Position numbers and translations under genes: made by a program
From: Odoribacter sp.
GTDB lineage: Bacteria > Bacteroidota > Bacteroidia > Bacteroidales > Prolixibacteraceae
Direction: 5' to 3'
Length of the DNA: 64,000 nucleotides
Assembly (NCBI GenBank): GCA_013824715.1
Contig: PNOH01000015.1
Location: 1-64,000 of the forward strand
Notes under the pieces: generated by a model
What the model was told of the DNA's origin: nothing
Seen by the model: the letters and a program-made list of their open reading frames with translations, nothing else
Database searches by the model: none
In this document: positions 3,867-53,590 of the stretch, piece by piece
Layout of the letters: each line of letters opens with the position of its first letter
Numbering within the stretch: position 1 is the stretch's first letter

Positions 3867-3895
3867 TTTGTTTTTCAATTCAATTTGTATATTTG
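3867..3895 (+). promoter_or_regulatory. Bacteroidota-type promoter of the modification methylase
   Basis: TTTG at 3867-3870 and TATATTTG at 3888-3895 match the -33/-7 elements (TTTG and TAnnTTTG) with a 17-base spacer. The methylase ATG is 38 bases downstream. Confidence 0.55.
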
Positions 3896-3932
3896 CTGTG
3901 TAAGCTTGTATAAGGTTTTAGATGTTTTGATC

Positions 3933-5006
3933 ATGGAAAAATATGTCAAAGTTGGTGAAGCAGCAAAGCTTTTAGGTGTTAGTAGCGAAACATTAAGACG
4001 TTGGGACAAATCGAAGAAATTTGAGAGTGTCCGCCACCCCATAAACAATTACAGAGTCTATCCTGAAAGCAATGTAATGTCGTTGGTAGAAGAATTGCAG
4101 CTCGAATTAAAATATTATAGCCCGAATTTATTGGAACTGGAAATAGAGCCTTTTTTTGAAACCAAATATGGAAAACTATATCAACACGATGCTATTGAAT
4201 TCTTAAAAACTTTAGAAAATGAGTCGGTTGATTTAATTTTTGCTGATCCTCCGTACAATATTAAAAAAGCCGAATGGGATACATTTGCCTCTCAGAAAGA
4301 GTACGTTGAGTGGAGCATGGAATGGATCAAAGAAGCACACCGGGTATTAAAAAAAACAGGGTCACTATATGTTTGCGGTTTTTCGGAAATCCTGGCAGAT
4401 TTAAAATGGAACGCATCAAGCTTATTTCAGGGATGTAAGTGGTTAGTTTGGTTTTACCGGAACAAAGGAAACCTGGGAAATGATTGGGGACGTTCTCATG
4501 AAAGTATTTTGCACCTCAGAAAAAGTAGGGAATTTATTTTCAATATTGATGAAGTTAGAATCCCCTACAATGAACATACACTTAAATATCCGGAGAGAGG
4601 CCAGGCCGAAACCTCTCAGTTTTCGAATGGGAAAAAGACCAATTATGAATGGACTCCTAATCCGCTGGGCGCGAAACCTAAAGATGTATTGGAAATTCCG
4701 ACTATTTCAAATGGGTCTTGGGAAAAAACTAGTCACCTCACACAAAAGCCTGTTGAGTTATTGCGAAAAATAATCCTTTCATCGTCCAATCAGGACAGTT
4801 TAATTCTTGATCCTTTTGGGGGTTCAGGCACCACTTATGCAGTGGCCGAAGCGTATAAAAGACTTTGGATAGGAACTGAATTAGAGGATCATTACTGCTC
4901 AGTTATCAAAAATAGATTGTCAGATAAAGGTCACATCAATAGGATATTAACTTGCAAGGATGAAGAAGATTCTCAAAAAAGAAGATCAAAATTAAGAGGA
5001 GAGTAA
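3933..5006 (+). CDS. Type II DNA methyltransferase with N-terminal MerR-like HTH
   Basis: 357 residues from the ATG at 3933. Residues 1-55 form a MerR/excisionase-like winged helix (GEAAKLLGVSSETLRRWD, then NNYRVY). The catalytic domain follows, with motif IV DPPYNI before motif I LDPFGGSGTT, the beta-class order of amino (N6-adenine or N4-cytosine) methyltransferases. DPPY favours N6-adenine. The recognition sequence cannot be read from the protein. The gene is convergent with the endonuclease gene and overlaps it by 15 bases, so it is taken as the modification half of a type II system. The fused HTH may give autoregulation, which is inference. Confidence 0.85.
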   Translation: MEKYVKVGEAAKLLGVSSETLRRWDKSKKFESVRHPINNYRVYPESNVMSLVEELQLELKYYSPNLLELEIEPFFETKYGKLYQHDAIEFLKTLENESVDLIFADPPYNIKKAEWDTFASQKEYVEWSMEWIKEAHRVLKKTGSLYVCGFSEILADLKWNASSLFQGCKWLVWFYRNKGNLGNDWGRSHESILHLRKSREFIFNIDEVRIPYNEHTLKYPERGQAETSQFSNGKKTNYEWTPNPLGAKPKDVLEIPTISNGSWEKTSHLTQKPVELLRKIILSSSNQDSLILDPFGGSGTTYAVAEAYKRLWIGTELEDHYCSVIKNRLSDKGHINRILTCKDEEDSQKRRSKLRGE

Positions 5007-5885
5007 ATTCCAAATATCCCTGGTTACCAATTCAGAGAATGGCTTCAAATACTTGTTATAAGGTTCTTTTGAAGCATTTGGCGGAGGATCAAGATAGTAA
5101 ATCCCTTCGAGTTCTGTTAGAAAATTGGAGTAAACCATAAATAATCCTGAAACCAAAGTAAAACTTATATTGTCATTCTCCTTTCGCTGAACATCATTCA
5201 GGAAAATTCCGATAACTTTTTGATCATGGTTTACAAATCGTTCAAGTAATATCTTATCAATAAACATCTTGCCCATTCTATCTTTGGATGTTGTTTTAAC
5301 CGAAACTACAATTTCGTGTTCATCAAGGTGTTTGCTGGTAGATCTTACCTTTGCATACGGAGAAAGAATCAGATCGTTTTCGCATTTATAGGTCTTTTCC
5401 CCTTCGTCAGTTTTATAAGGAATTTGAAGAACCGTCTTTTTATTGGCAATTCCAATTTCTGTAAAAAAGGCTTTAATTAATTCCTCAAACCGGTTTCCAA
5501 CATGTTTTCTTGCACTGTTCGGATTTGCCAATAAATCAAACCCGGCTCCTATAGATTGTTGGATGGTATATAAAACGCTATCAATTAATTCCTTTTCCCA
5601 ATCGGTCCAGTCTTCATGACTGGCTTTCATTTTCTCTGTTAACTTCCGAAAATTGATTAGCTTGTTTTTTAAATCTTCAGGTGAATAGATAAAAAGTCGT
5701 TGATTTATTGGTCTGATAAATTTTGTCGTTCCCGCACTTTGAGAAAAATGAATATTGTACCCATTCTTCTCCTTGAGTTCTTCGCTTAATACGTTTGGAA
5801 GATATTCCAAAACCCGAACTGCTATATTTTCAAACTCAGCCAATGAGTTCTTCTTTTCCTGAAGATCGTTGATTAATGAAAGCAT
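4992..5885 (-). CDS. Type II restriction endonuclease (PD-(D/E)xK-like)
   Basis: 297 residues, soluble. The C-terminal half has a candidate PD-(D/E)xK core: YKCENDLILSP with an acidic Glu-Asn-Asp, then EIVVSVKTTSKDRMGKMF, where SVK takes the place of the usual D/E-x-K. This KTTSKDR block is familiar from type II endonucleases. The gene overlaps the convergent methylase gene by 15 bases, which supports the pairing. It lacks a helicase or ATPase domain, so it is not type I or III. Specificity is unknown. Confidence 0.72.
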   Translation of the reverse strand: MLSLINDLQEKKNSLAEFENIAVRVLEYLPNVLSEELKEKNGYNIHFSQSAGTTKFIRPINQRLFIYSPEDLKNKLINFRKLTEKMKASHEDWTDWEKELIDSVLYTIQQSIGAGFDLLANPNSARKHVGNRFEELIKAFFTEIGIANKKTVLQIPYKTDEGEKTYKCENDLILSPYAKVRSTSKHLDEHEIVVSVKTTSKDRMGKMFIDKILLERFVNHDQKVIGIFLNDVQRKENDNISFTLVSGLFMVYSNFLTELEGIYYLDPPPNASKEPYNKYLKPFSELVTRDIWNLLSS

Positions 5886-9534: not shown

Positions 9535-11475
9535 ATGAAACAAGCCACTACCCGATTATCAGGTATATTTTTATTTATCCTGATCACACTAAACTTAACA
9601 GCCCAAAAAAAGAACGAATTCATCGTTAAAATTGGTGACCAAAAAGTTAGCAAAGAAGAATTTGTAGCCAATTATCAGAAAAACAACACTAATATTCTGG
9701 ACGAAAAAGACCGGAAAACACCTGCCGAATACCTCGAACTGTACCTAAACTTTAAACTGAAGGTACTCGAAGCCCAAAAATTAGGTTACGACACGGTAAA
9801 TTCCTTCATTCAGGAGTTAAAAGGCTACCGGCAGGAATTGGCGAAACCCTATCTGACTGATGTTTCTTTTAACGAAGAAATGGTTCAGACTGCCTATTAC
9901 AGAACCCGGCACGAGCGAAAAGCAAGTCATCTGCTGATTCTCGTTACTCCGGAAGCCTCACCAACCGACACCTTGATAGCATGGAACAAAATCAACGACC
10001 TGCGCAAACAGATAATTGCAGGAACCGATTTTAACGAAATGGCCTCCAAATATTCTGAAGACCCGTCGGCTGCACAAAACAAAGGGTTATTGGGTTACTT
10101 TAGCGCCTTCCAGATGGTTTTCCCGTTTGAGGACATGACATACCGCACGCCTGTCGGACAGGTTTCCGGAATTGTCCGCACACGTTTTGGCTACCACCTG
10201 ATCAAAGTGCACGACGAGCGGATTACTCCCGGGGAAATAAAAGTAGCTCATATCATGAAAATGTTCCCACAGCAAGCCAGCGATGAAACTATTGCCAGCC
10301 TGAAACTTTCGGCTGACAGTATCTGGCAGAAAGCAACTTCAGGAACCGATTTTGCTGAACTTGCCAAAGCGTATTCCGACGACAAACAATCGGCCGTTGA
10401 AGGCGGCGTCCTGAATTGGTTCACCCCAACCAACATGGTTCCGGAGTTTGCCGAAGCAGCTTTTGCACTAAAAAATGATGGTGATATTTCGCCTGTAATC
10501 CGTACATCTTTTGGCTGGCACATCATCAAACGCCTCGAATTCCACACTACTCCACCATTCGAAAAAATACGGTCTGAACTGGAAACCAAAATCAAACAAA
10601 ATCCGGCAATCAGCAAGTACAGCGACGAAGCATTCGATCGGAAACTGAGGGCAGAATATCAGTTAAAAGTTGATGAAACCAATCTGGCAGAACTTAATGC
10701 TTCGGTTTCGGATACCATGAAAAGAAAAGAAAATAAAGACAAATTACTGGTAAGTTTTGCCAATCAAACAATTACGGTTGGTCAATTTACAGATTTCCTT
10801 CAAAAAGAGAATTATTCACCCGTTCAGGATAAGCCGGAAGCTGAAGTAGTTGTTTTGCTCAACAAGTTCATCAGCCAAAAATTATTCGAATACGAAAATA
10901 CCCAACTGGTGAAAAAGCATCCTGATTTTGCCAGGGTCTATCAGGAATATCACGATGGCATCCTGCTTTTCAATATCTCGAAGGATAAAATCTGGGATGT
11001 GGCCTCAACCGATTCAGCAAGGCTTCAGAAATATTACGAACAAACCGATAAAAAGTACTTCTGGAACGATCGGTTTAAAGGCTGGGTGATAGAATCAGCA
11101 AATATTGAAATCCGGTCCAGACTTGAAAGAATGCTGGATGAAAAGGAATGTTCCCAGCAGGAACTGGAAGATGTTTTCAATACCAAAACCGAAAATAATG
11201 TTCAGTTCAGAACAGTCGCTTCTGAGAAAGGAGATGACCCGATTGTAGATTATTACATTTGGAGTGGAGCAAAACCCACAGGGTTTGATGAAACTACTAC
11301 CTTTGTGCACGGAAAAATCGTTCAACACGAACAAAAAGAGTTGAAGGATGCCTGGGGATTATATTCCTCTGACCTTCAGGAACAAATTGAAAAAGAATGG
11401 ATTGACTCGTTAAGAAAAAAATATCCGATCGAAATAAATAAAAAAGCGCTCAAAAAAATACCCGCGGTTGAATGA
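9535..11475 (+). CDS. Periplasmic parvulin-type peptidyl-prolyl isomerase, two PpiC domains
   Basis: The ATG at 9535 gives a classic signal peptide (KQATTRLSGIFLFILITLNLTAQ region). An earlier in-frame ATG at 9499 would add 12 residues before it and is less likely. After a SurA/PrsA-like N-terminal helical region come two parvulin domains, with landmarks KASHLLILV to FGYHLIKVHD and VAHIMKMF to FGWHIIKR. A long C-terminal region lacks clear motifs. It likely acts as a chaperone/isomerase for outer membrane proteins. It overlaps the next gene by 4 bases (ATGA), so the two are translationally coupled. Confidence 0.88.
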   Translation: MKQATTRLSGIFLFILITLNLTAQKKNEFIVKIGDQKVSKEEFVANYQKNNTNILDEKDRKTPAEYLELYLNFKLKVLEAQKLGYDTVNSFIQELKGYRQELAKPYLTDVSFNEEMVQTAYYRTRHERKASHLLILVTPEASPTDTLIAWNKINDLRKQIIAGTDFNEMASKYSEDPSAAQNKGLLGYFSAFQMVFPFEDMTYRTPVGQVSGIVRTRFGYHLIKVHDERITPGEIKVAHIMKMFPQQASDETIASLKLSADSIWQKATSGTDFAELAKAYSDDKQSAVEGGVLNWFTPTNMVPEFAEAAFALKNDGDISPVIRTSFGWHIIKRLEFHTTPPFEKIRSELETKIKQNPAISKYSDEAFDRKLRAEYQLKVDETNLAELNASVSDTMKRKENKDKLLVSFANQTITVGQFTDFLQKENYSPVQDKPEAEVVVLLNKFISQKLFEYENTQLVKKHPDFARVYQEYHDGILLFNISKDKIWDVASTDSARLQKYYEQTDKKYFWNDRFKGWVIESANIEIRSRLERMLDEKECSQQELEDVFNTKTENNVQFRTVASEKGDDPIVDYYIWSGAKPTGFDETTTFVHGKIVQHEQKELKDAWGLYSSDLQEQIEKEWIDSLRKKYPIEINKKALKKIPAVE

Positions 11476-12335
11476 GAAAATCTGGTTTCTATATCGTTTT
11501 TATAGCCTCACTGCTTTCCGCGTGCAGCTTGCTTCTTGATACCGGCGAGCCAATTGCGAAGGTAGGCGCCAGGGTTTTAACAGTGGAAGAACTTTCGAAA
11601 AATGTTCCTGATTATCTGGATGCAACCGATAGTGCGCTTTGGGCCGACGATTACATCAAAAAATGGGTGCAGCGGGAACTTCTTTTGCTTAAAGCCGAAG
11701 AAAATCTGAAGGGCAACGAGAAAGACGTGAGCCAGGAACTGCAAGAGTACCGTAATTCGCTCATCGTGTTCAGGTATAAAAATGAGTTGATCAGGCAAAA
11801 AATGGATACCATTGTGAAGAATTCGGATATTCAAAAGTATTATAGCGAACACCACGAGAGTTTTATCCTTAACCGGAACATCGTCAAAGCCATTTACATC
11901 AAGGTTCCGGTTGCTGTGTCGAGTCCTGAAAATCTGAAGGATCTTTGTTCAAGTAATGATCCGGAAAAACAGGCCAGGCTAAATGAATTTTGCCTGAGTT
12001 ATGCCAAAGCGTACGACAGGTTTAACGATCAGTGGATAGCAGCCGATCTGGTATTGAAATATACCCCGGCCACGATTCCTGATCTGGAACTTTTTTTGAA
12101 AAGAAACCGATTTATCGAAAGCAGCGACATGGATTTTTACTATCTGGTATGTATCCGTGACTACCGGCTGACAGGTCAGGGTGCGCCTGTTGAGTATGTT
12201 CAGAACGACATAAAAAACCTGATTTTAAGCAAACAAAAACTCGATTTCCTGAAACAGATTGAAAAAGATATTTATAAAGAAGGTATTGATAACAACAAGG
12301 TTAAACTATATAAAACAAAAAATAATCGTTTATGA
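11472..12335 (+). CDS. SurA-like lipoprotein without visible parvulin domain
   Basis: 287 residues with a lipobox LLSAC, so the mature protein is probably lipid-anchored. The N-terminal helical part (AKVGARVLTVEELSKNVPDY, then WVQRELLLLKAEE) resembles the chaperone region of SurA/PpiC proteins. No parvulin catalytic domain is recognisable in the remainder. It sits between two parvulin genes, coupled to both by ATGA overlaps (11472-11475 and 12332-12335), so all three probably work as one chaperone set. Function is inferred from context. Confidence 0.75.
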   Translation: MRKSGFYIVFIASLLSACSLLLDTGEPIAKVGARVLTVEELSKNVPDYLDATDSALWADDYIKKWVQRELLLLKAEENLKGNEKDVSQELQEYRNSLIVFRYKNELIRQKMDTIVKNSDIQKYYSEHHESFILNRNIVKAIYIKVPVAVSSPENLKDLCSSNDPEKQARLNEFCLSYAKAYDRFNDQWIAADLVLKYTPATIPDLELFLKRNRFIESSDMDFYYLVCIRDYRLTGQGAPVEYVQNDIKNLILSKQKLDFLKQIEKDIYKEGIDNNKVKLYKTKNNRL

Positions 12336-48282: not shown

Positions 48283-48307
48283 TTGATGGTGGTTTGTAAT
48301 AGGCACA

Positions 48308-48338
48308 CTGATCCAATGACTTGGGGTCATCGGATCAG
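48308..48338. repeat. Imperfect palindrome in the intergenic region
   Basis: CTGATCCAATGAC and GTCATCGGATCAG pair at 12 of 13 positions around a 5-base loop. No T tract follows and the function is unknown. Confidence 0.5.
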
Positions 48339-48463
48339 TTGTTCGGATAACGATCATCCACAACCAACGGATGACAAAGTATTGATATACAAATAATAAT
48401 TGTGAATTATCGCATATTGCGATATGAGAATCAGGCTGAAAATGCAAACCTCTGCCTTAATTT

Positions 48464-48495
48464 ACTGACGGGGTGACTCGAGTCACCACGTCAGT
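48464..48495. repeat. 32-base near-perfect palindrome
   Basis: ACTGACG-G-GGTGACTC is followed directly by GAGTCACC-A-CGTCAGT: 15 of 16 positions pair with no loop. It lies between two copies of a CTGAAAATGCAAACC motif (48436-48450 and 48517-48531). It has no T tract, so a terminator role is unlikely. Confidence 0.6.
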
Positions 48496-48498
48496 AGT

Positions 48499-48732
48499 TC
48501 AGGAAAGGTTTATTCCTGAAAATGCAAACCTGCTCCGGTGTTGGGCTAATTTCTCAGGTGAAGGATAAAACCGCGAATTGGGTGGAAGATGGAGTTCATA
48601 ACCGCTGAATTGCCGGATACCAACATCCGGAAAATGATCGGTGAGGCGGGGATGCACCAGAATGCGGTAATTGTCGGAAACCGAAACCAAATCCCGGTCG
48701 AAGGCACGGTGAAGGGTTGGAGAAAGGGTTAA
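48499..48732 (-). pseudogene. C-terminal remnant of an HNH endonuclease
   Basis: The open stretch reads SPTLHRAFDRDLVSVSDNY, then RILVHPRL and GYELHLPPNSRFYP. This resembles the end of HNH_2-type endonucleases, where a His precedes AFDR. The HNH core upstream is missing and there is no ATG; a stop codon lies at 48733-48735. The last residues (FAFSGINLS) come from a local repeat. It is a dead fragment downstream of the intact HNH operon. Confidence 0.6.
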
Positions 48733-48775
48733 TCAAAAGAGAAGTTAGATAACTTTATTAGAACAGACCTCAGTT

Positions 48776-49636
48776 TTAATAGCTTCTTTTATCCGGTATT
48801 AATCCACGAATTCCACCTCTTGGTTCTTTAACATCACCTCTATATCGCGGTACCAAATGTATATGAACATGAGGAATCGTTTGCCCTGCTGACTCATTGA
48901 TGTTGATTCCAACATTGAACCCGTCAGGATTAAATTCCGTCTTTATAATCTCTCTTACTTTGTTCAACATAAACCAACAAGCAGATTGTTCTTTGAAAGT
49001 GAGTTCGAAATAATCAGGACAATGTTTTTTAGAAATTATTAAAGCATGTCCTTTGCTGACAGGGAACTTATCAAACATTGCATAAGCAGTAGCAGATTCT
49101 AAAATCAATTTTCTTTCTGGCTCAGGATTGCAAAACGGACAATCAATATTTTCTGCTCTGTAGTGTTGGTTATAGTGTTTATATACATATATTTCACAAC
49201 TTGCATTTTCGAAAATTGATTTATAACCCAACTTAACATTGCATTGATAAGTTGGTTTCTGATGAATCTTATGAGTTCTGAAACCTTCATAAAGTAAATC
49301 TCTTCTAACGGCAAAGTATGCTTTACCTGTTGGCTTCAACAACTGAGAAATCATCATTAACACATTCGCTTGTTCTTCCTGCATCAAAACATTTAGCACA
49401 TAAAAGCAAATAATGGTATCAAATGTTTTAGTTGGATAATTTGGGAAGTAGTGTTTGTCGTAACCCTCAATACAAATGCCTTTCGATTTCAATAATTCAA
49501 CATCTTTTCCAAATCCACAACCAAAATCTAAAACATCACCTATCAATAAACTTTTGCTCAACAGAAGTTTTGCAGGAAATGAAAGCGTTTCTCTTTCTTT
49601 CGCAGTAAGGTGGCTGTATTGGTTATGTTTTGTCAT
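48776..49636 (-). CDS. Fusion of class I SAM methyltransferase and HIT domain
   Basis: 286 residues from the ATG at 49636. Residues 1-150 are a class I methyltransferase: GDVLDFGCGFGKDVELL is the SAM-binding motif and DTIICFYVLNVL follows the third strand. From about 170 a HIT domain begins with CPFCNPEPE, continues with FPVSKGHALIISKKH and ends with IPHVHIHLVPR, the His triad of nucleotide hydrolases or transferases. The start overlaps the end of the upstream HNH gene by 14 bases, so they form one operon. Substrates are unknown. RNA or nucleotide modification in a conflict system is a reasonable guess. Confidence 0.85.
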   Translation of the reverse strand: MTKHNQYSHLTAKERETLSFPAKLLLSKSLLIGDVLDFGCGFGKDVELLKSKGICIEGYDKHYFPNYPTKTFDTIICFYVLNVLMQEEQANVLMMISQLLKPTGKAYFAVRRDLLYEGFRTHKIHQKPTYQCNVKLGYKSIFENASCEIYVYKHYNQHYRAENIDCPFCNPEPERKLILESATAYAMFDKFPVSKGHALIISKKHCPDYFELTFKEQSACWFMLNKVREIIKTEFNPDGFNVGININESAGQTIPHVHIHLVPRYRGDVKEPRGGIRGLIPDKRSY

Positions 49637-50708
49637 GTAAAAATTCAAAACCATTATTTGAGGCAATCGTGATTAGTGGTTGAATTCTCTCCATGTATTT
49701 TACTTTGGTTACATATTCAGGCAAACTTTTCACTTCATCTAAATCAGAAAATATTGTCAGATAATCCTCAAGGAATTTATTCTTCGGGGATTTCTCCCTC
49801 ACAATTTCAATGGCTGTCTTTTGAAGGTGGAAGAACTTATTAAAATATCTTTCAAGAGGTGGGAGTTTATCATTCTTTGAACTGTTGAATGCTTTGTCAG
49901 CAGGGATTAAATTCCAAATTAAATCATGTGAAACGAAATTGTAAGGAATGAAATGTTCAACGGCATAGTTTCCAACAGTGAGATTCTCGTCGGTGTAAAT
50001 ACATTTTACTGAACCAAGTTCGTTAATAACTATATCCCAAAAATCCTTTCGTTGGCTTTTCAAATCTCCTCTTACAGCAGGTTTAATCAACTTGTTTGGA
50101 ATACCAGGTACATTTGGATTCTTTGCTTGTAAAAACAAAGCAAGATTCCAGTAACAAAAATCCTTCAGTACTCTTGCGTTAGCAATCAGATAATTTTTCC
50201 ATTCAGGATTGATTTCAATTTCATCATCATAAAGAGCATACAAACATTTTTCGCTGAAACTTTTTGATTGCGAATATATTCTTTTCACTTGTTGTGAATC
50301 TGGTTCATTTTTATTCTTTGGAAACCAAGGACTTAAAAACCAGTGCGGTACATTTTTATTAAAATGCCATAGCGTTCTTTCTGTAATTCTGTTTGTTGTT
50401 GAAGTAAGTTTTTGAAAAACATCTTGTTGCTTTTCATCAATTGCTATTCTCTCATTTTCATTTATAACTTGAATTGCTTCTTGAATTAAGTCTTGTTTCC
50501 CAAAAGAAACATGAAAATAATTAACGGTGTACCAGGCATTAGACATCATTTTTGCAAAAATATCCCTCTTTAGAATTCTTGTTTTTTCAGATTCAATGGA
50601 TTGAATGATAGAAAGAAACCAGTAAAACTTATAGGTAGCTGAAGTACTATTGAAACATGCGGCTAATAGATTGACAGGTAATCCATTTTTACTTGGGAGT
50701 TGGATCAT
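49623..50708 (-). CDS. HNH endonuclease-domain protein
   Basis: 361 residues. A large helical N-terminal region (about 1-230) without known motifs is followed by an HNH core: AVEHFIPYNFVSHDLIWNLI has the first His, and ADKAFNSSKNDKLP has the Asn and Lys-Asp positions of the beta-beta-alpha metal finger. No CxxC zinc pairs are present. The gene is coupled to the methyltransferase-HIT fusion. As a potential DNA or RNA nuclease it would be the effector of the pair, which is inference. Confidence 0.8.
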   Translation of the reverse strand: MIQLPSKNGLPVNLLAACFNSTSATYKFYWFLSIIQSIESEKTRILKRDIFAKMMSNAWYTVNYFHVSFGKQDLIQEAIQVINENERIAIDEKQQDVFQKLTSTTNRITERTLWHFNKNVPHWFLSPWFPKNKNEPDSQQVKRIYSQSKSFSEKCLYALYDDEIEINPEWKNYLIANARVLKDFCYWNLALFLQAKNPNVPGIPNKLIKPAVRGDLKSQRKDFWDIVINELGSVKCIYTDENLTVGNYAVEHFIPYNFVSHDLIWNLIPADKAFNSSKNDKLPPLERYFNKFFHLQKTAIEIVREKSPKNKFLEDYLTIFSDLDEVKSLPEYVTKVKYMERIQPLITIASNNGFEFLHDKT

Positions 50709-50747
50709 AGATTAATAGTAAGTTTTTTGGTTAAGCAACCTTATCGA

Positions 50748-50799
50748 TATAAAGTTACGAAGCTTTGCTATATAAAAATCAGTGAAAATCAATTATTCT
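50748..50799. repeat. 52-base repeat upstream of the HNH gene
   Basis: Matches 51779-51830; the first 21 bases of both copies are identical. It lies 40 bases upstream of the HNH start, as the other copy lies 37 bases upstream of the KilA-N start, so it may carry the promoter. The rest of the gap 50800-50911 shows nothing clear. Confidence 0.7.
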
Positions 50800-50911
50800 T
50801 TCTCAATCTTGATAATAGCAACATCTCAAAAATCGGCAGAACTCCGCTTTTAATCCTTCCTTCAACCGCATTTGGAGGTTGCTTTTTCAGTGTTACCCAA
50901 GGATGGTTTGA

Positions 50912-51742
50912 TCATTTCAACTTCTTCAGGCTTTTGTATGCAAGTAATGATCGCATTTGGGTAATGGCAATTTGGTTCAATTGAAACAATCGTTCGTTTT
51001 GTTGCAAACCTTGATGGATGAGAACGGCATTGATGCTTTCCAAATTAGAAAGCACTACCAGTTGTTCGATGGTTGCCTGATCGCGGATATTGCCTTCGGC
51101 ATCCGGGTTTTCTGTGCGCCATTCCTGCGCGGTTTTACCAAAAAGCGCTACGTTCAGCATATCGGCTTCATTCGCATATACAAAGCTGATTTGAAGCTTG
51201 GTTAATTCTGCAGGAATGAGGTTTTCTTTAATGGCATCGGTATGAATGTGATAGTTGACTTTAGCCAGTGTGCGTTGAAAGTTCCATTCCAGCTTTAGCC
51301 GGTCGTTTTCATCTTCTTTGAGGCGTTGGAATTCTTTGATCAGAAACAACTTGAAAACCGGACTAACTGCTGAACAAAATTCAAACGCAATATCTTTATG
51401 TGCATACGTTCCACCATACTTTCCTAATTTCACATAAATTCCTTTTGCATTGGTCTTTTCAACCCATTGTCCGGGACTTAATACAAAACTTGGCAATCCT
51501 GCCTGCATTTTAAAGTGGTCGAATTCGACCACTTTAAAATCGGGATTATACATTTGTTCCCATGTCCCCAAAAATTCAAGAGTAGATCGGTTTCTAATCC
51601 AGTTTTTAATTATATCGGCTGCTCTTGATTCGCCAATTTTTGATTTAGCAATATCAGTAATGCATATAAAGTCATTCTCCTTTGAGGTTACAATTGAAAT
51701 TTCAATTTCTTGAACCTTAATTACTTTAATTTTTTGATTCAT
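50912..51742 (-). CDS. KilA-N domain-containing protein
   Basis: 276 residues. The KilA-N DNA-binding domain spans about 1-115 (FICITDIAKSKIGESRAADI, then WEQMYNPDFKVVEFD and SPGQWVEKTNAKGIYVKLG). A helical C-terminal region holds NPDAEGNIRDQATIEQLVVL and QNERLFQLNQIAITQMRSLL. The family is common in phages and mobile elements and next to toxins. Its C-terminal tail is repeated twice more in the neighbourhood. It lies upstream of the HNH operon on the same strand. Confidence 0.85.
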   Translation of the reverse strand: MNQKIKVIKVQEIEISIVTSKENDFICITDIAKSKIGESRAADIIKNWIRNRSTLEFLGTWEQMYNPDFKVVEFDHFKMQAGLPSFVLSPGQWVEKTNAKGIYVKLGKYGGTYAHKDIAFEFCSAVSPVFKLFLIKEFQRLKEDENDRLKLEWNFQRTLAKVNYHIHTDAIKENLIPAELTKLQISFVYANEADMLNVALFGKTAQEWRTENPDAEGNIRDQATIEQLVVLSNLESINAVLIHQGLQQNERLFQLNQIAITQMRSLLAYKSLKKLK

Positions 51743-51778
51743 AAATTTAAGGTGAATGGTTTTTTATTTGTTTATTGT

Positions 51779-51830
51779 TATAAAGTTACGAAGCTTTGCC
51801 ATAAAAATATCGGCGAAAACCAATTATTCT
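51779..51830. repeat. 52-base repeat upstream of the KilA-N gene
   Basis: Second copy of the repeat at 50748-50799. No gene is seen in the remainder of 51831-51923. Confidence 0.7.
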
Positions 51831-51923
51831 CAACATAAAACGAATTGCCAACAAAACAAACAGCCTGAATTCCGGATTTTCATCTTTTGTTTAACCGCTT
51901 ATAATCGTTAATGAGTTTTCAGC

Positions 51924-52016
51924 TTATTGCAATTTCTTCAGGCTTTTGTATCCAAGTAACGATCGCAGTAGGGTAATAGCAATTTGGTTCAATTGCATTA
52001 ATCGTTCGAGTTTCAT
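51924..52016 (-). CDS. 30-codon ORF encoding a lone KilA-N C-terminal tail
   Basis: Reads MKLERLMQLNQIAITLLRSL, then LGYKSLKKLQ, almost the end of the intact KilA-N protein. Its ATG overlaps the ORF6N stop (ATGA). It may be a remnant of a deleted KilA-N gene fused at its end, or it may still be translated by coupling. Confidence 0.5.
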   Translation of the reverse strand: MKLERLMQLNQIAITLLRSLLGYKSLKKLQ

Positions 52017-52966
52017 CGGATGGTGGTCTTTTCATTTAGCTTATTCAACACATTGATCGTTTCGGCGTCCATTTTGGAGAAGGCAAACCATTTTTTACCT
52101 AAATCTTTTAAGGAGGCACCAATATGGTAGAGTTCTGTTTCGTCAATAATCAAAAATCGGTCGTGGGCTTGTGTAAGTTCTTTTATAGTAAGAGGATCGT
52201 ATTGTGAATTGTGCTTTTCAATATCCACCGCTAATTGCTTGCTAATTATTTTGGTATAGATGGTTACGGTTACACCTTTATTGCGTTTCGTAAACAGGCT
52301 AAGTACCGTATCATCAACAAAATTATCAATTAGGACAATTGACGTTCTGGCTTTACGAATCAGGTCGGATACTAATTGCCAGGCATCAAACAATTGTCCA
52401 TCAAAGAAAAGGCCTTTGTCTGGAATCTTTTCCTTGCTTTCCAAGGCTCTAAAAATTTGTTCAAACTTTTGGTCCGCCTCCAGTTGCTTGTGTTCCACTT
52501 TTTCGACGCGTTGAAAAAGGGCAGAATTACCCAATATCAGTTTTCTCATTTCCACAAAAGCATTCATAATCTGCAAACTTACTTTTACTGCTGTTTCGCT
52601 TCGCAATACTGCCGAAAGCATTGCCACACCTTGTTCGGTGAAAACAAAAGGAAGATAACGCCTACCTCCATGTTTTGAACTTGAGGTGCCAATTTGGAAC
52701 CTCAAATTGTTTAAGGTCACATTTTGTGTCCTTAAAGATTCATCATTATTTAAAGTGCCAATTTGGAACCTTAAATTGTCCCACTCAGTATCGGTCAGTT
52801 GAAACATAAATTCTTTTGGGAAGCGATCCAAATTTCTTTTAACCGCCCGATTTAATATTTTAGTTTCTAAACCGTACATTTCTGCTAAGTGACTATCCAG
52901 CATCACCTGTGTACCACGAATGGTTAAAATGCGGTTTTCGATTTCCTGTTGTTTGATCAAATTCAT
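52013..52966 (-). CDS. ORF6N domain-containing protein
   Basis: 317 residues. An N-terminal ORF6N domain (VMLDSHLAEMYGLETKILNR, FPKEFMFQLTDTEW, then YLPFVFTEQGVAMLSAVL) contains an internal near-duplication of NLRFQIGT. The C-terminal half (SIVLIDNFVDDTVLSLF and HDRFLIIDETELYHIGASL) resembles a PLD-like or DUF-type domain found in other ORF6N proteins. These are phage- and plasmid-associated DNA-binding proteins. It is flanked on both sides by KilA-N tail sequences joined through ATGA overlaps. Confidence 0.85.
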   Translation of the reverse strand: MNLIKQQEIENRILTIRGTQVMLDSHLAEMYGLETKILNRAVKRNLDRFPKEFMFQLTDTEWDNLRFQIGTLNNDESLRTQNVTLNNLRFQIGTSSSKHGGRRYLPFVFTEQGVAMLSAVLRSETAVKVSLQIMNAFVEMRKLILGNSALFQRVEKVEHKQLEADQKFEQIFRALESKEKIPDKGLFFDGQLFDAWQLVSDLIRKARTSIVLIDNFVDDTVLSLFTKRNKGVTVTIYTKIISKQLAVDIEKHNSQYDPLTIKELTQAHDRFLIIDETELYHIGASLKDLGKKWFAFSKMDAETINVLNKLNEKTTIR

Positions 52967-53166
52967 TTCTTCATGTTTTTATACCCCAGTAACGATCGCA
53001 TTTGGGTAATGACGATTTGGGTCAATTGAACAATCGTTCGTTTTGAGGCAAACTCTGGTTAATTAGCACTGCATTGATGCTTTCCAGATTTGAAATCACT
53101 ACCAGTTGTTCGATGGTTGACGGTCACGGATATTGCTTTCGGCATCCGGGTTTTCGGTGCGCCATT
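52963..53166 (-). pseudogene. KilA-N C-terminal remnant upstream of the ORF6N gene
   Basis: Sequence similar to the end of the intact KilA-N gene (RTENPDAESNIRD, VVISNLESINAVLINQ, TQIVITQMRSLLGYK) but interrupted by two one-base deletions. Its terminal TGA overlaps the ORF6N ATG. The similarity starts right after the stop of the DUF6557 remnant, so the upstream part was replaced. Confidence 0.75.
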
Positions 53167-53543
53167 ATTCTTCGTTCTCATCATCCATATTTAATTCCTT
53201 TTTTAAATCGTCCCAGGATTTTAATTTAGTCTTCTTTTCCTCTTCGGTCATATTCTTTATTTCGTCAACCTCTTTTTCGATCTCGTCCATCTCTTTCTGA
53301 ATTTTTTCCTGATCAAATCCAAAAAAAGTCATCTCGTACAGGCAATGAGAAATCAGTTCCAATTCGGTAAAGTCTTTTATTCTCAACGATCGAAATATCA
53401 GTTTCCGTTGGAGACAATAACTTCAAATCGTTGAAAACTGCCTCATATCCTGAAATGTTCTTCTTCTCTTTCGGATAAAGTTGTAAAAACACTTGTTCAA
53501 CGCTAAGCCAGGAATTTCGTTTTATGATTTCGGTAAATTTCAT
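53165..53543 (-). pseudogene. DUF6557-like gene with internal deletion and frameshift
   Basis: Frame 1 starts MKFTEIIKRNSWLSVEQVF at 53543 and reads to ETDISIV near 53390. Frame 2 then continues LRIKDFTELELISHCLYEMT and a helical tail with DEIKNMTEEEKKTKLKSWDD. Together they look like the two ends of a DUF6557 protein with roughly 40-50 residues missing from the middle. The family name is from memory of its C-terminal motif. It is inactive as it stands. Confidence 0.65.
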
Positions 53544-53590
53544 AGGTATCTGGTATGTTTGATCTGCCAACTGCGACTGACCACTGAACA

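Follow-up and report, generated by a model that had tools for sequence, protein, structure and literature searches.

The window analysed here, 64,000 nucleotides of Odoribacter sp. (Bacteroidota, GTDB family Prolixibacteraceae; GenBank assembly GCA_013824715.1, contig PNOH01000015.1, positions 1 to 64,000 of the forward strand), carries on its minus strand an HNH endonuclease gene (49623-50708) upstream of a gene (48776-49636) that fuses a class I S-adenosylmethionine (SAM) methyltransferase to a HIT domain (MT-HIT). The HNH and MT-HIT genes are a conserved pair that is kept together across genomes, and they probably form an undescribed defence system; an earlier note on this DNA had picked them out as a candidate for an undescribed system. 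PADLOC 2.0.0 holds no specific model for them, and nothing on the combination was found in open-access literature. The parts are known, and the module is a variant of nuclease-based defence that stands close to the nucleases associated with Ssp phosphorothioation genes. We consider it fairly probable that the pair is a mobile two-gene restriction-type module acting against invaders, which evolved from such an Ssp-associated nuclease.

Organization and conservation of the gene pair

The elements of the pair, in positions of the window, are the following.

49623..50708, minus strand: HNH endonuclease gene, class A, 361 amino acids (P0002) (open reading frame; 77 of 80 loci have a homologue immediately 5' of MT-HIT)
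50064..50708, minus strand: residues 1-215 of the HNH protein, an N-terminal part that is mostly helical and of no known family (Pfam, AlphaFold2, PDB comparison)
49860..50003, minus strand: HNH_4 core, residues 236-283 (Pfam; C236, H252, N266, N275 and K278 invariant)
49623..49636, minus strand: 14-base gene overlap ATGACAAAACATAA (open reading frame positions)
48776..49636, minus strand: MT-HIT fusion gene, 286 amino acids (P0001) (open reading frame; Pfam; AlphaFold2 pLDDT 86.9, pTM 0.84)
49172..49636, minus strand: class I SAM methyltransferase domain, akin to TIGR04096 in the N-terminal part of that model (profile match, hhalign)
48779..49144, minus strand: HIT domain with tail PRGGIRGLIPDKRSY, residues 165-286 (Pfam, Foldseek)
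48857..48871, minus strand: histidine triad HVHIH, residues 256-260 (sequence, conservation)

The overlap of 14 bases and the fusion of methyltransferase and HIT in one protein, both described in the earlier note, were recovered, with the two reading frames at these positions and Pfam matches to both domains in P0001. The exact length of the overlap holds because the start of MT-HIT is taken as the conserved ATG at 49636, which gives 286 amino acids; the TTG listed at 49666 is merely mechanical. Through this overlap, translation of the HNH and MT-HIT genes is likely coupled.

A scan of 84,980 species genomes yielded at least 524 confirmed MT-HIT relatives, and the loci analysed are the best 80 of these, so that the set leans to close relatives of the window protein. 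Flanks of at least 5 kb are available on both sides in 53 of the 80 loci, and 27 have less than 5 kb on at least one side. A homologous HNH gene lies directly upstream of MT-HIT in 77 of these best 80 loci; L131 carries an HNH_2 gene in place of the HNH_4 homologue, and the cyanobacterial MT-HIT copies L142 and L144 are without an HNH gene. With each frame extended to its earliest possible start, the reading frames overlap in 74 of the 77 HNH/MT-HIT loci, in 50 of them by 4, 8 or 13 bases. Among 395 Bacteroidota genomes, 17 encode a near-full-length fusion, in every case closely preceded by an HNH-superfamily match, which is a clear HNH_4 (class A or B, see below) in 15, a weak HNH_4 match within a longer frame in G195 and an HNH_2 match in G282. 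The genus of G111 includes 14 genomes with MT-HIT out of 72, each with HNH upstream (10 class A, one of them truncated, and 4 class B), two of which are also among the 17. All five MT-HIT copies in other relatives of the window's genome are likewise paired with HNH. The co-occurrence of the two genes elsewhere, a point raised in the earlier note, is far beyond chance (77/80 best loci, 17/17 fusion genomes).

The HNH protein

Pfam assigns residues 236-283 of P0002 to HNH_4 (3.5e-7, 30.5 bits against a cut-off of 22). In the alignment of HNH proteins, C236, H252, N266, N275 and K278 are each conserved in 78 of 78 sequences, including the HNH histidine whose conservation the earlier note had made a matter of interest. 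The spacing of H252-N266-N275 equals that of H840-N854-N863 in SpCas9. The HNH domain of Cas9 also provides the best sequence and fold matches of the window nuclease core, whereas no other Cas9 domain is matched, the N-terminal region differs, and Glu251 precedes the catalytic histidine. A relation to CRISPR was rejected, the Cas9 likeness being confined to the HNH core.

The AlphaFold2 model of the HNH protein is confident (mean pLDDT 89.5). Foldseek returned nothing for it in the PDB at E≤0.001, with Cas9 structures on top, and the viral structure libraries likewise held no match for the N-terminal region. No Pfam model matches the N-terminal 235 residues at E≤1. Residues 1-215 have no recognised fold, because only Cas9 structures top the PDB list and none reaches E≤0.001; the large unrecognised region of the earlier note therefore stays unrecognised by Pfam and, as a predicted structure, by PDB comparison at this threshold. 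This region is probably the recognition part of the protein.

The MT-HIT protein

P0001 has Pfam matches to HIT (2.5e-20, residues 172-266) and to a class I methyltransferase (Methyltransf_23, 3.2e-9), and the HIT match together with the H-x-H-x-H triad (HVHIH) places it in the HIT superfamily. Its AlphaFold2 model is confident as well, and the top Foldseek match is the HIT protein 3imi (E 7.3e-10). HIT enzymes work on nucleotide phosphate bonds, and His258 is, by analogy with the family, the nucleophile. The SAM loop (D37, G39, C40, G41, G43, D45) is conserved in 81 of 81 aligned MT-HIT proteins, and the triad, which the earlier note had likewise singled out, is nearly so (H256 80/81, H258 78/81, H260 80/81). 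The three proteins that have lost His258 are the partnerless cyanobacterial L142 and L144 and L136, whose HNH gene is broken.

The methyltransferase domain is matched over residues 9-90 by TIGR04096, a phosphorothioation-associated putative methyltransferase (1.2e-14), but the match stays below the curated cut-off (54 bits against 150) and covers only model positions 5-89 of 478. Compared with a full-length member of this family on the Synechocystis plasmid pSYSM, the domain gives an hhalign probability of 98.1% (E 1.2e-13, 92 columns). Inspection of the sequence found neither (D/N/S)PPY, the motif of base-amino DNA methylases, nor PCQ/ENV, which are further DNA methylase motifs. P0001 is thus not the DNA base methylase with (D/N/S)PPY or PCQ that stands beside the nuclease in type II restriction-modification.

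Exchange of the nuclease half

Three classes of HNH partner accompany MT-HIT, namely class A (as in the window), class B and, rarely, class C (HNH_2). Class B proteins are 15-20% identical to the window HNH and have T25, Y26, K27, W59 and the HNH core in common with it in the alignment. Homology of class C to class A was rejected, as hhalign detected no relation (probability 4.5%). A quick tree of 93 MT-HIT proteins, with 43 of its 88 inner branches open, contains 22 changes of partner class, and at least eight class A changes are forced by its starred branches alone. Four of the 17 fusion sequences (L032, L036, L038 and L047) are outside this tree, and L032, L036 and L038 come from the same genomes as L084, L130 and L129.

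Among 72 locus pairs with a common upstream flank, 27 differ in HNH class, their HNH proteins being 22-26% identical and their MT-HIT proteins 75-94% identical. Algoriphagus kandeliae (L130) and A. limi (L107) have 94% DNA identity over the 8.9 kb up to the HNH gene, cannot be aligned as DNA across that gene (HNH 26% identical in amino acids), and resume with 91% DNA identity over 10.8 kb of MT-HIT and downstream sequence (MT-HIT 93.7% identical in amino acids). The pair L112/L118 has the same exchange pattern, and L109/L116 is comparable. This pattern is expected if diversifying selection acts on a specificity that resides in the HNH protein, and if MT-HIT can partner any HNH. In L102, a class C (HNH_2-like) nuclease gene (10892-11662) directly follows a class A HNH/MT-HIT pair.

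That HNH is swapped without MT-HIT speaks against a sequence-matched restriction-modification pair. Conventional restriction-modification, with MT-HIT methylating the HNH recognition site in host DNA, would account for an HNH gene and a methyltransferase in one operon, for the rarity of another DNA methylase in the flanks (2/80 loci by a crude motif search, which missed at least one type IIG enzyme), and for the HIT-only relative L052, flanked by an HNH_2 nuclease on one side and by Vsr with a 5-methylcytosine methylase on the other. It is nevertheless highly improbable in view of the missing (D/N/S)PPY and PCQ/ENV motifs, the swapping of the nuclease without the methyltransferase, and the separate type II cytosine methylase that follows the pair in G159 and G235. 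Simple restriction-modification with the methyltransferase as base methylase was rejected on the first two of these grounds. The modify, process and cleave logic that the earlier note had thought conceivable gained no support, whereas the fusion, the coupling, the co-occurrence, the defence-gene neighbours and the lack of a specific PADLOC 2.0.0 match were borne out. Beyond its scope lie the link to Ssp genes, the three interchangeable HNH classes and the replacement of another HNH gene at the window site.

The exchange also bears on a toxin-antitoxin-like or abortive-infection pair, in which the HNH protein would be a DNase that turns on host DNA once triggered, with MT-HIT neutralising it, either by binding or by taking off or attaching a nucleotide or methyl group. 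Replacement of an HNH protein by one of about 25% identity, with MT-HIT little changed, is unusual for a binding antitoxin, and HNH genes without MT-HIT exist. Two small overlapping genes that share a hot spot with KilA-N and ORF6N would fit such a pair, as would the loss of the central HIT histidine in both MT-HIT copies that have no HNH gene. The distances of HNH and MT-HIT proteins correlate (r 0.70 in class A, 0.88 in class B), but shared descent predicts this too and interaction is not separable from it. Overall, we regard the toxin-antitoxin reading as unlikely.

A variable hot spot in the host genus

The pair is present in 2 of 23 genomes of the window's genus, several of the 23 being incomplete, and both copies occupy the same hot spot, which contains the following features.

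48288..53583, no strand: variable hot spot holding the pair, with borders conserved in relatives (synteny with G485, G473 and G472)
48499..48732, minus strand: 3'-terminal remnant of an APHKP-type HNH_2 (class C) nuclease gene (tblastn, synteny)
50912..51742, minus strand: KilA-N gene, PADLOC PDC-S22 (2.5e-132), a neighbour outside the module (Pfam, PADLOC)
52013..52966, minus strand: ORF6N gene, PADLOC PDC-S05 (4.5e-127), a neighbour outside the module (Pfam, PADLOC)

The conserved left flank ends near 48284 and the right one resumes near 53583. Between them, the hot spot is almost empty in G485, holds other genes in G473 and holds the same pair in G472; the pair is accessory and comes and goes between genomes. 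The flanks in G473 are 91-95% identical to the window, and at the position of the pair this genome carries an 'APHKP'-type HNH gene whose 3' end is out of frame there. This gene resembles the HNH_2 partner in L131 (34% over 255 amino acids) and matches a PADLOC HNH model (5.1e-7), with no Pfam match at 0.001. By tblastn, the remnant at 48499-48732 is 74% identical over 38 amino acids to the G473 gene and 33% over 67 amino acids to the L131 gene, and its match to the G473 gene at this site indicates that the pair took over the place of another HNH nuclease gene.

KilA-N and ORF6N, the island neighbours named in the earlier note, were both found by Pfam, and PDC-S22 and PDC-S05 are candidate-defence models of PADLOC. 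The 3' end of the KilA-N gene occurs as three direct repeats (50914-50996, 51926-52008 and 52959-53041; 71-88% identical to the first), and G473 has a similar repeat series with Bro-N and other genes. The series makes up a set of regulator-type cassettes with a common C-terminal segment, which may act as arms for recombination at the hot spot.

A housekeeping role in DNA repair or in the metabolism of nucleotides with no part in defence, such as an aprataxin-like HIT enzyme cleaning adenylated ends after HNH nicking, would suit the HIT fold and the strong conservation of all three domains. Such a role is scarcely credible given the patchy presence (17/395 genomes; 2/23 in the genus), the hot-spot location, the defence neighbours and the swapping of nucleases.

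Defence-gene company

For the analysis of neighbours, 62 of the 80 loci were used after dereplication, 17 near-copies and a further locus that had no usable neighbours being left out. Near genes were the two nearest on each side, of which 101 of 103 and 108 of 114 proteins were scanned against PADLOC, eight having been dropped for their length or, in one case, as an HNH fragment; the far control comprised 100 of 174 proteins from genes more than 5.5 kb away. Counted as models rather than genes, 208 and 108 PADLOC models were matched by the 101 and 108 near proteins, against 56 by the 100 far proteins, a clear contrast. The near-gene matches listed include SspB, SspD, SspE, PbeA, DpdE, JetA, JetB, DrmA and restriction enzymes; in L102, a third nuclease gene beside the pair accounts for one of the two type II HNH matches. 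Wadjet genes adjoin the pair at -4 to 15 bases in 5 of the 62 loci, with JetA downstream in L094, L101, L110 and L111 and JetD upstream in L104. Proximity to known defence genes, as supposed in the earlier note, is therefore borne out by the Wadjet neighbours, by Ssp genes in 8 of 80 loci and by the contrast between near and far genes, and a defence role is well supported by association.

At E≤1, PADLOC 2.0.0 offered no specific model for either gene, the matches being a generic HIT match (ThsC, 6.4e-10) and weak ones (Cas9 6.1e-4, and others). The former raises the possibility of a nucleotide-signal system, in which MT-HIT would make or destroy a signal that switches HNH on or off, comparable to ThsC of Thoeris type II. 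The general action of HIT enzymes on nucleotide phosphate bonds would agree with this, and the ThsC model does match the HIT part, although as a generic HIT domain. ThsC itself is proposed as a possible off-switch in passages of PMC8565338. The pair includes no signal synthase, none was seen by eye among families present in at least 3 of the 62 loci, and the HNH N-terminal region belongs to no known ligand-binding family, which makes a nucleotide-signal system very unlikely. The Ths models gave no match for the HNH, KilA-N and ORF6N genes, that is, on the one side of MT-HIT that was scanned.

A phage-borne system was rejected, since 50,697 phage records contained one HNH match (24% identity) and no full MT-HIT. 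Viral contigs contained one HNH fragment at a contig edge.

Link to Ssp genes and probable origin of the pair

In 8 of the 80 loci the pair has Ssp neighbours, namely SspD in L074, an SspB fragment with SspD in L078, the whole of SspB in L080, fragments of SspB in L083, L086, L090 and L096, and an SspA/DndA-type cysteine desulfurase in L140; the L078 and L090 pieces of SspB were found by tblastn only. G267 has a single run of SspB, a shortened SspC, HNH and MT-HIT, and in G472 an SspD-like gene overlaps MT-HIT by 4 bases. All that is left of SspB in five loci is an N-terminal piece just upstream of HNH (L083 8256-8594, L086 2981-3403, L096 8615-8887, L078 8708-8878 and L090 920-1054), which gives the impression that the pair displaced the remainder of an Ssp operon. 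SspD is kept in L078 on the far side of the pair from this piece, and the L086 piece continues into a stretch matching the PADLOC candidate PDC-M11B and looks chimeric.

HNH homologues without MT-HIT occur on plasmids in 16 records, 15 of which align with 26-31% identity over 80% or more of the query. With three more pSYSM copies and one partial match set aside, 12 distinct plasmid loci were examined, and 6 of them have Ssp genes within the 6-9 kb inspected, the HNH homologue lying between SspC and SspD in L236 and L241. Class A HNH homologues are found in this way among Ssp genes in H. yonginensis, Synechocystis (pSYSM), Cyanobacterium HL-69, Geminocystis, Leptolyngbya and Synechococcus NIES-970, and in G249 together with SspA, SspB and SspC and without MT-HIT. 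Two of the cyanobacterial loci also encode a separate TIGR04096 methyltransferase. HIT genes of the same subfamily that lack the methyltransferase part adjoin HNH genes in L051, L053, L056, L057, L066 and L067, so that HIT is a recurrent companion of HNH and the methyltransferase domain looks like an addition; other HIT-only relatives (e.g., L048, L050 and L055) have no HNH gene within 1.5 kb. The simplest history would be that an Ssp-associated nuclease joined a relative of the Ssp-associated methyltransferase fused to HIT and became a stand-alone pair.

In L052 (449-3305), the order HNH_2 nuclease, HIT, Vsr and 5-methylcytosine methylase resembles a 5-methylcytosine restriction-modification operon, and L049 is similar by eye.

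The Ssp link invites a further reading, in which MT-HIT is a one-gene substitute for the four-gene Ssp modification machinery and writes or erases a novel DNA mark; we find this quite unlikely. Just as doubtful within it is the proposal that the mark is of nucleotidyl or methyl type, on the DNA backbone or ends, and that several HNH classes read it to distinguish self from invader. Very different nucleases could then be plugged into the same MT-HIT gene because all would read that mark.

Obligatory co-occurrence with Ssp was rejected, since SspB is present in 3 of the 17 fusion genomes (in G023 as a broken piece only) against 24 of 395 overall, a genome-wide contrast that is not compelling; physical linkage carries more weight. 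Phosphorothioate-dependent cutting as a general mechanism was likewise dismissed, given that the window's genome and 14 of the 17 lack SspB. In the window's genome the pair must work without Ssp-made phosphorothioate, as SspB, and with it the SspABCD modification set, is missing there; three PAPS-reductase-domain matches in this genome appear by eye to be CysD, CysH and a sugar amidotransferase, not SspD. SspE-type effectors are defined by DUF262 plus HNH, and neither protein of the pair matches SspE or DUF262 at E≤1 in Pfam or PADLOC.

Proposed mechanism

The layout of the nuclease core, the fusion, the overlap, the conservation, the hot spots, the defence company and the exchange of nucleases are read from the sequence, and from them we infer a mechanism for a mobile restriction-type module. 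The HNH protein would recognise and cut invading DNA, cutting being suggested by its intact catalytic core, and its N-terminal region would set the specificity, in keeping with the exchange and with the lack of a recognised fold. MT-HIT would be the constant enzymatic half that renders HNH cutting safe or conditional. It is catalytically intact in almost every HNH-partnered copy and tolerates varied HNH proteins, so it probably acts enzymatically on something common, which would be a feature shared by the targets of all HNH classes rather than one recognition sequence. Candidate substrates are a DNA end, a backbone or nucleotide mark, and a soluble nucleotide. MT-HIT would thereby do for its HNH partners what Ssp modification may do for HNH homologues without MT-HIT.

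Several observations weigh against this reading or its Ssp origin. The 27 different-class pairs rest on three class B loci (L107, L116 and L118), all of Algoriphagus, and the Algoriphagus pair occupies one orthologous site beside ordinary genes, which is less typical of mobile islands. G190, outside the 81 aligned proteins, lacks His258 though it keeps its HNH partner. The far control also contains defence genes, numbers of PADLOC models are not numbers of genes, and the second type II HNH match among the near proteins probably stems from the HNH partner in L131; the defence reading is one of association. No Ssp gene was found in 72 of the 80 loci (27 of the 80 having less than 5 kb on at least one side), in the vicinity of the other 6 of the 12 plasmid loci (two of them cut by the record start), or near the HNH homologues without MT-HIT in G021 and G080. 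SspB is absent from the window's genome (G000) at E≤1e-10 and from 14 of 17 fusion genomes, so that phosphorothioate is not a general requirement.

Relation to known systems

The pair resembles Ssp systems in the occurrence of class A HNH homologues among Ssp genes, in its position beside SspA, SspB or SspD in 8 of 80 loci and in the relation of its methyltransferase part to TIGR04096, but most pairs stand alone, neither gene matches SspE, and the fusion is no Ssp component. HNH-containing restriction enzymes include McrA-like enzymes and GmrSD. The joining of an HNH core to an N-terminal recognition region is common to HNH restriction enzymes and the window nuclease, and MT-HIT has class C partners that belong to the HNH_2 'APHKP' type; the window pair differs in its HNH_4 core, in an N-terminal region without a Pfam match and in usually having no adjacent base methylase. 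Stand-alone HIT proteins (Ap4A-hydrolase, Fhit or Hint-like) have the same fold and triad, whereas the window HIT is fused to a methyltransferase and coupled to an HNH gene.

A precedent for HIT in defence is ThsC of Thoeris, and passages of PMC8565338 present a HIT protein as an additional component of Thoeris type II; in the window, by contrast, HIT is fused to a methyltransferase and its neighbours are HNH and KilA-N. Open-access literature yielded nothing relevant on HIT with HNH or on a methyltransferase-HIT fusion, and the relevant passages of reviews of Dnd and BREX neighbourhoods treat other HNH architectures and do not mention a HIT domain (PMC10853773, PMC12839542).

If the proposed reading is true, it adds a defence module, mainly of Bacteroidota and some neighbouring phyla, that PADLOC 2.0.0 does not specifically model, built on an enzyme fusion not found in published open-access literature. 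It would also provide a handle on the unexplained TIGR04096 methyltransferase family of phosphorothioation loci. The Algoriphagus sister species constitute a natural experiment in which only the nuclease is exchanged at one chromosomal site, so that the roles of the variable recognition part and the constant MT-HIT are separable genetically.

Further observations

Beside the pair in L114, ATP synthase gamma was recognised by eye among ordinary genes. A helicase of about 1,600 amino acids recurs near the pair in five loci (L102, L124, L131, L133 and L134), with DEAD and UvrD domains in L102. Among viral contigs, 14 loci (L148-L161) match the methyltransferase part only, without reaching into HIT. 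In Streptomyces phage phiSASD1 (L189, 4060-5387), the PAPS-reductase-like gp3 is followed by the HIT gene gp4, and these two enzyme types recur around the HNH/MT-HIT pair. Far from the pair, the window carries at 3885-5885 an adenine-type DNA methylase (DPPY) and a convergent gene that by eye is type II restriction enzyme-like.

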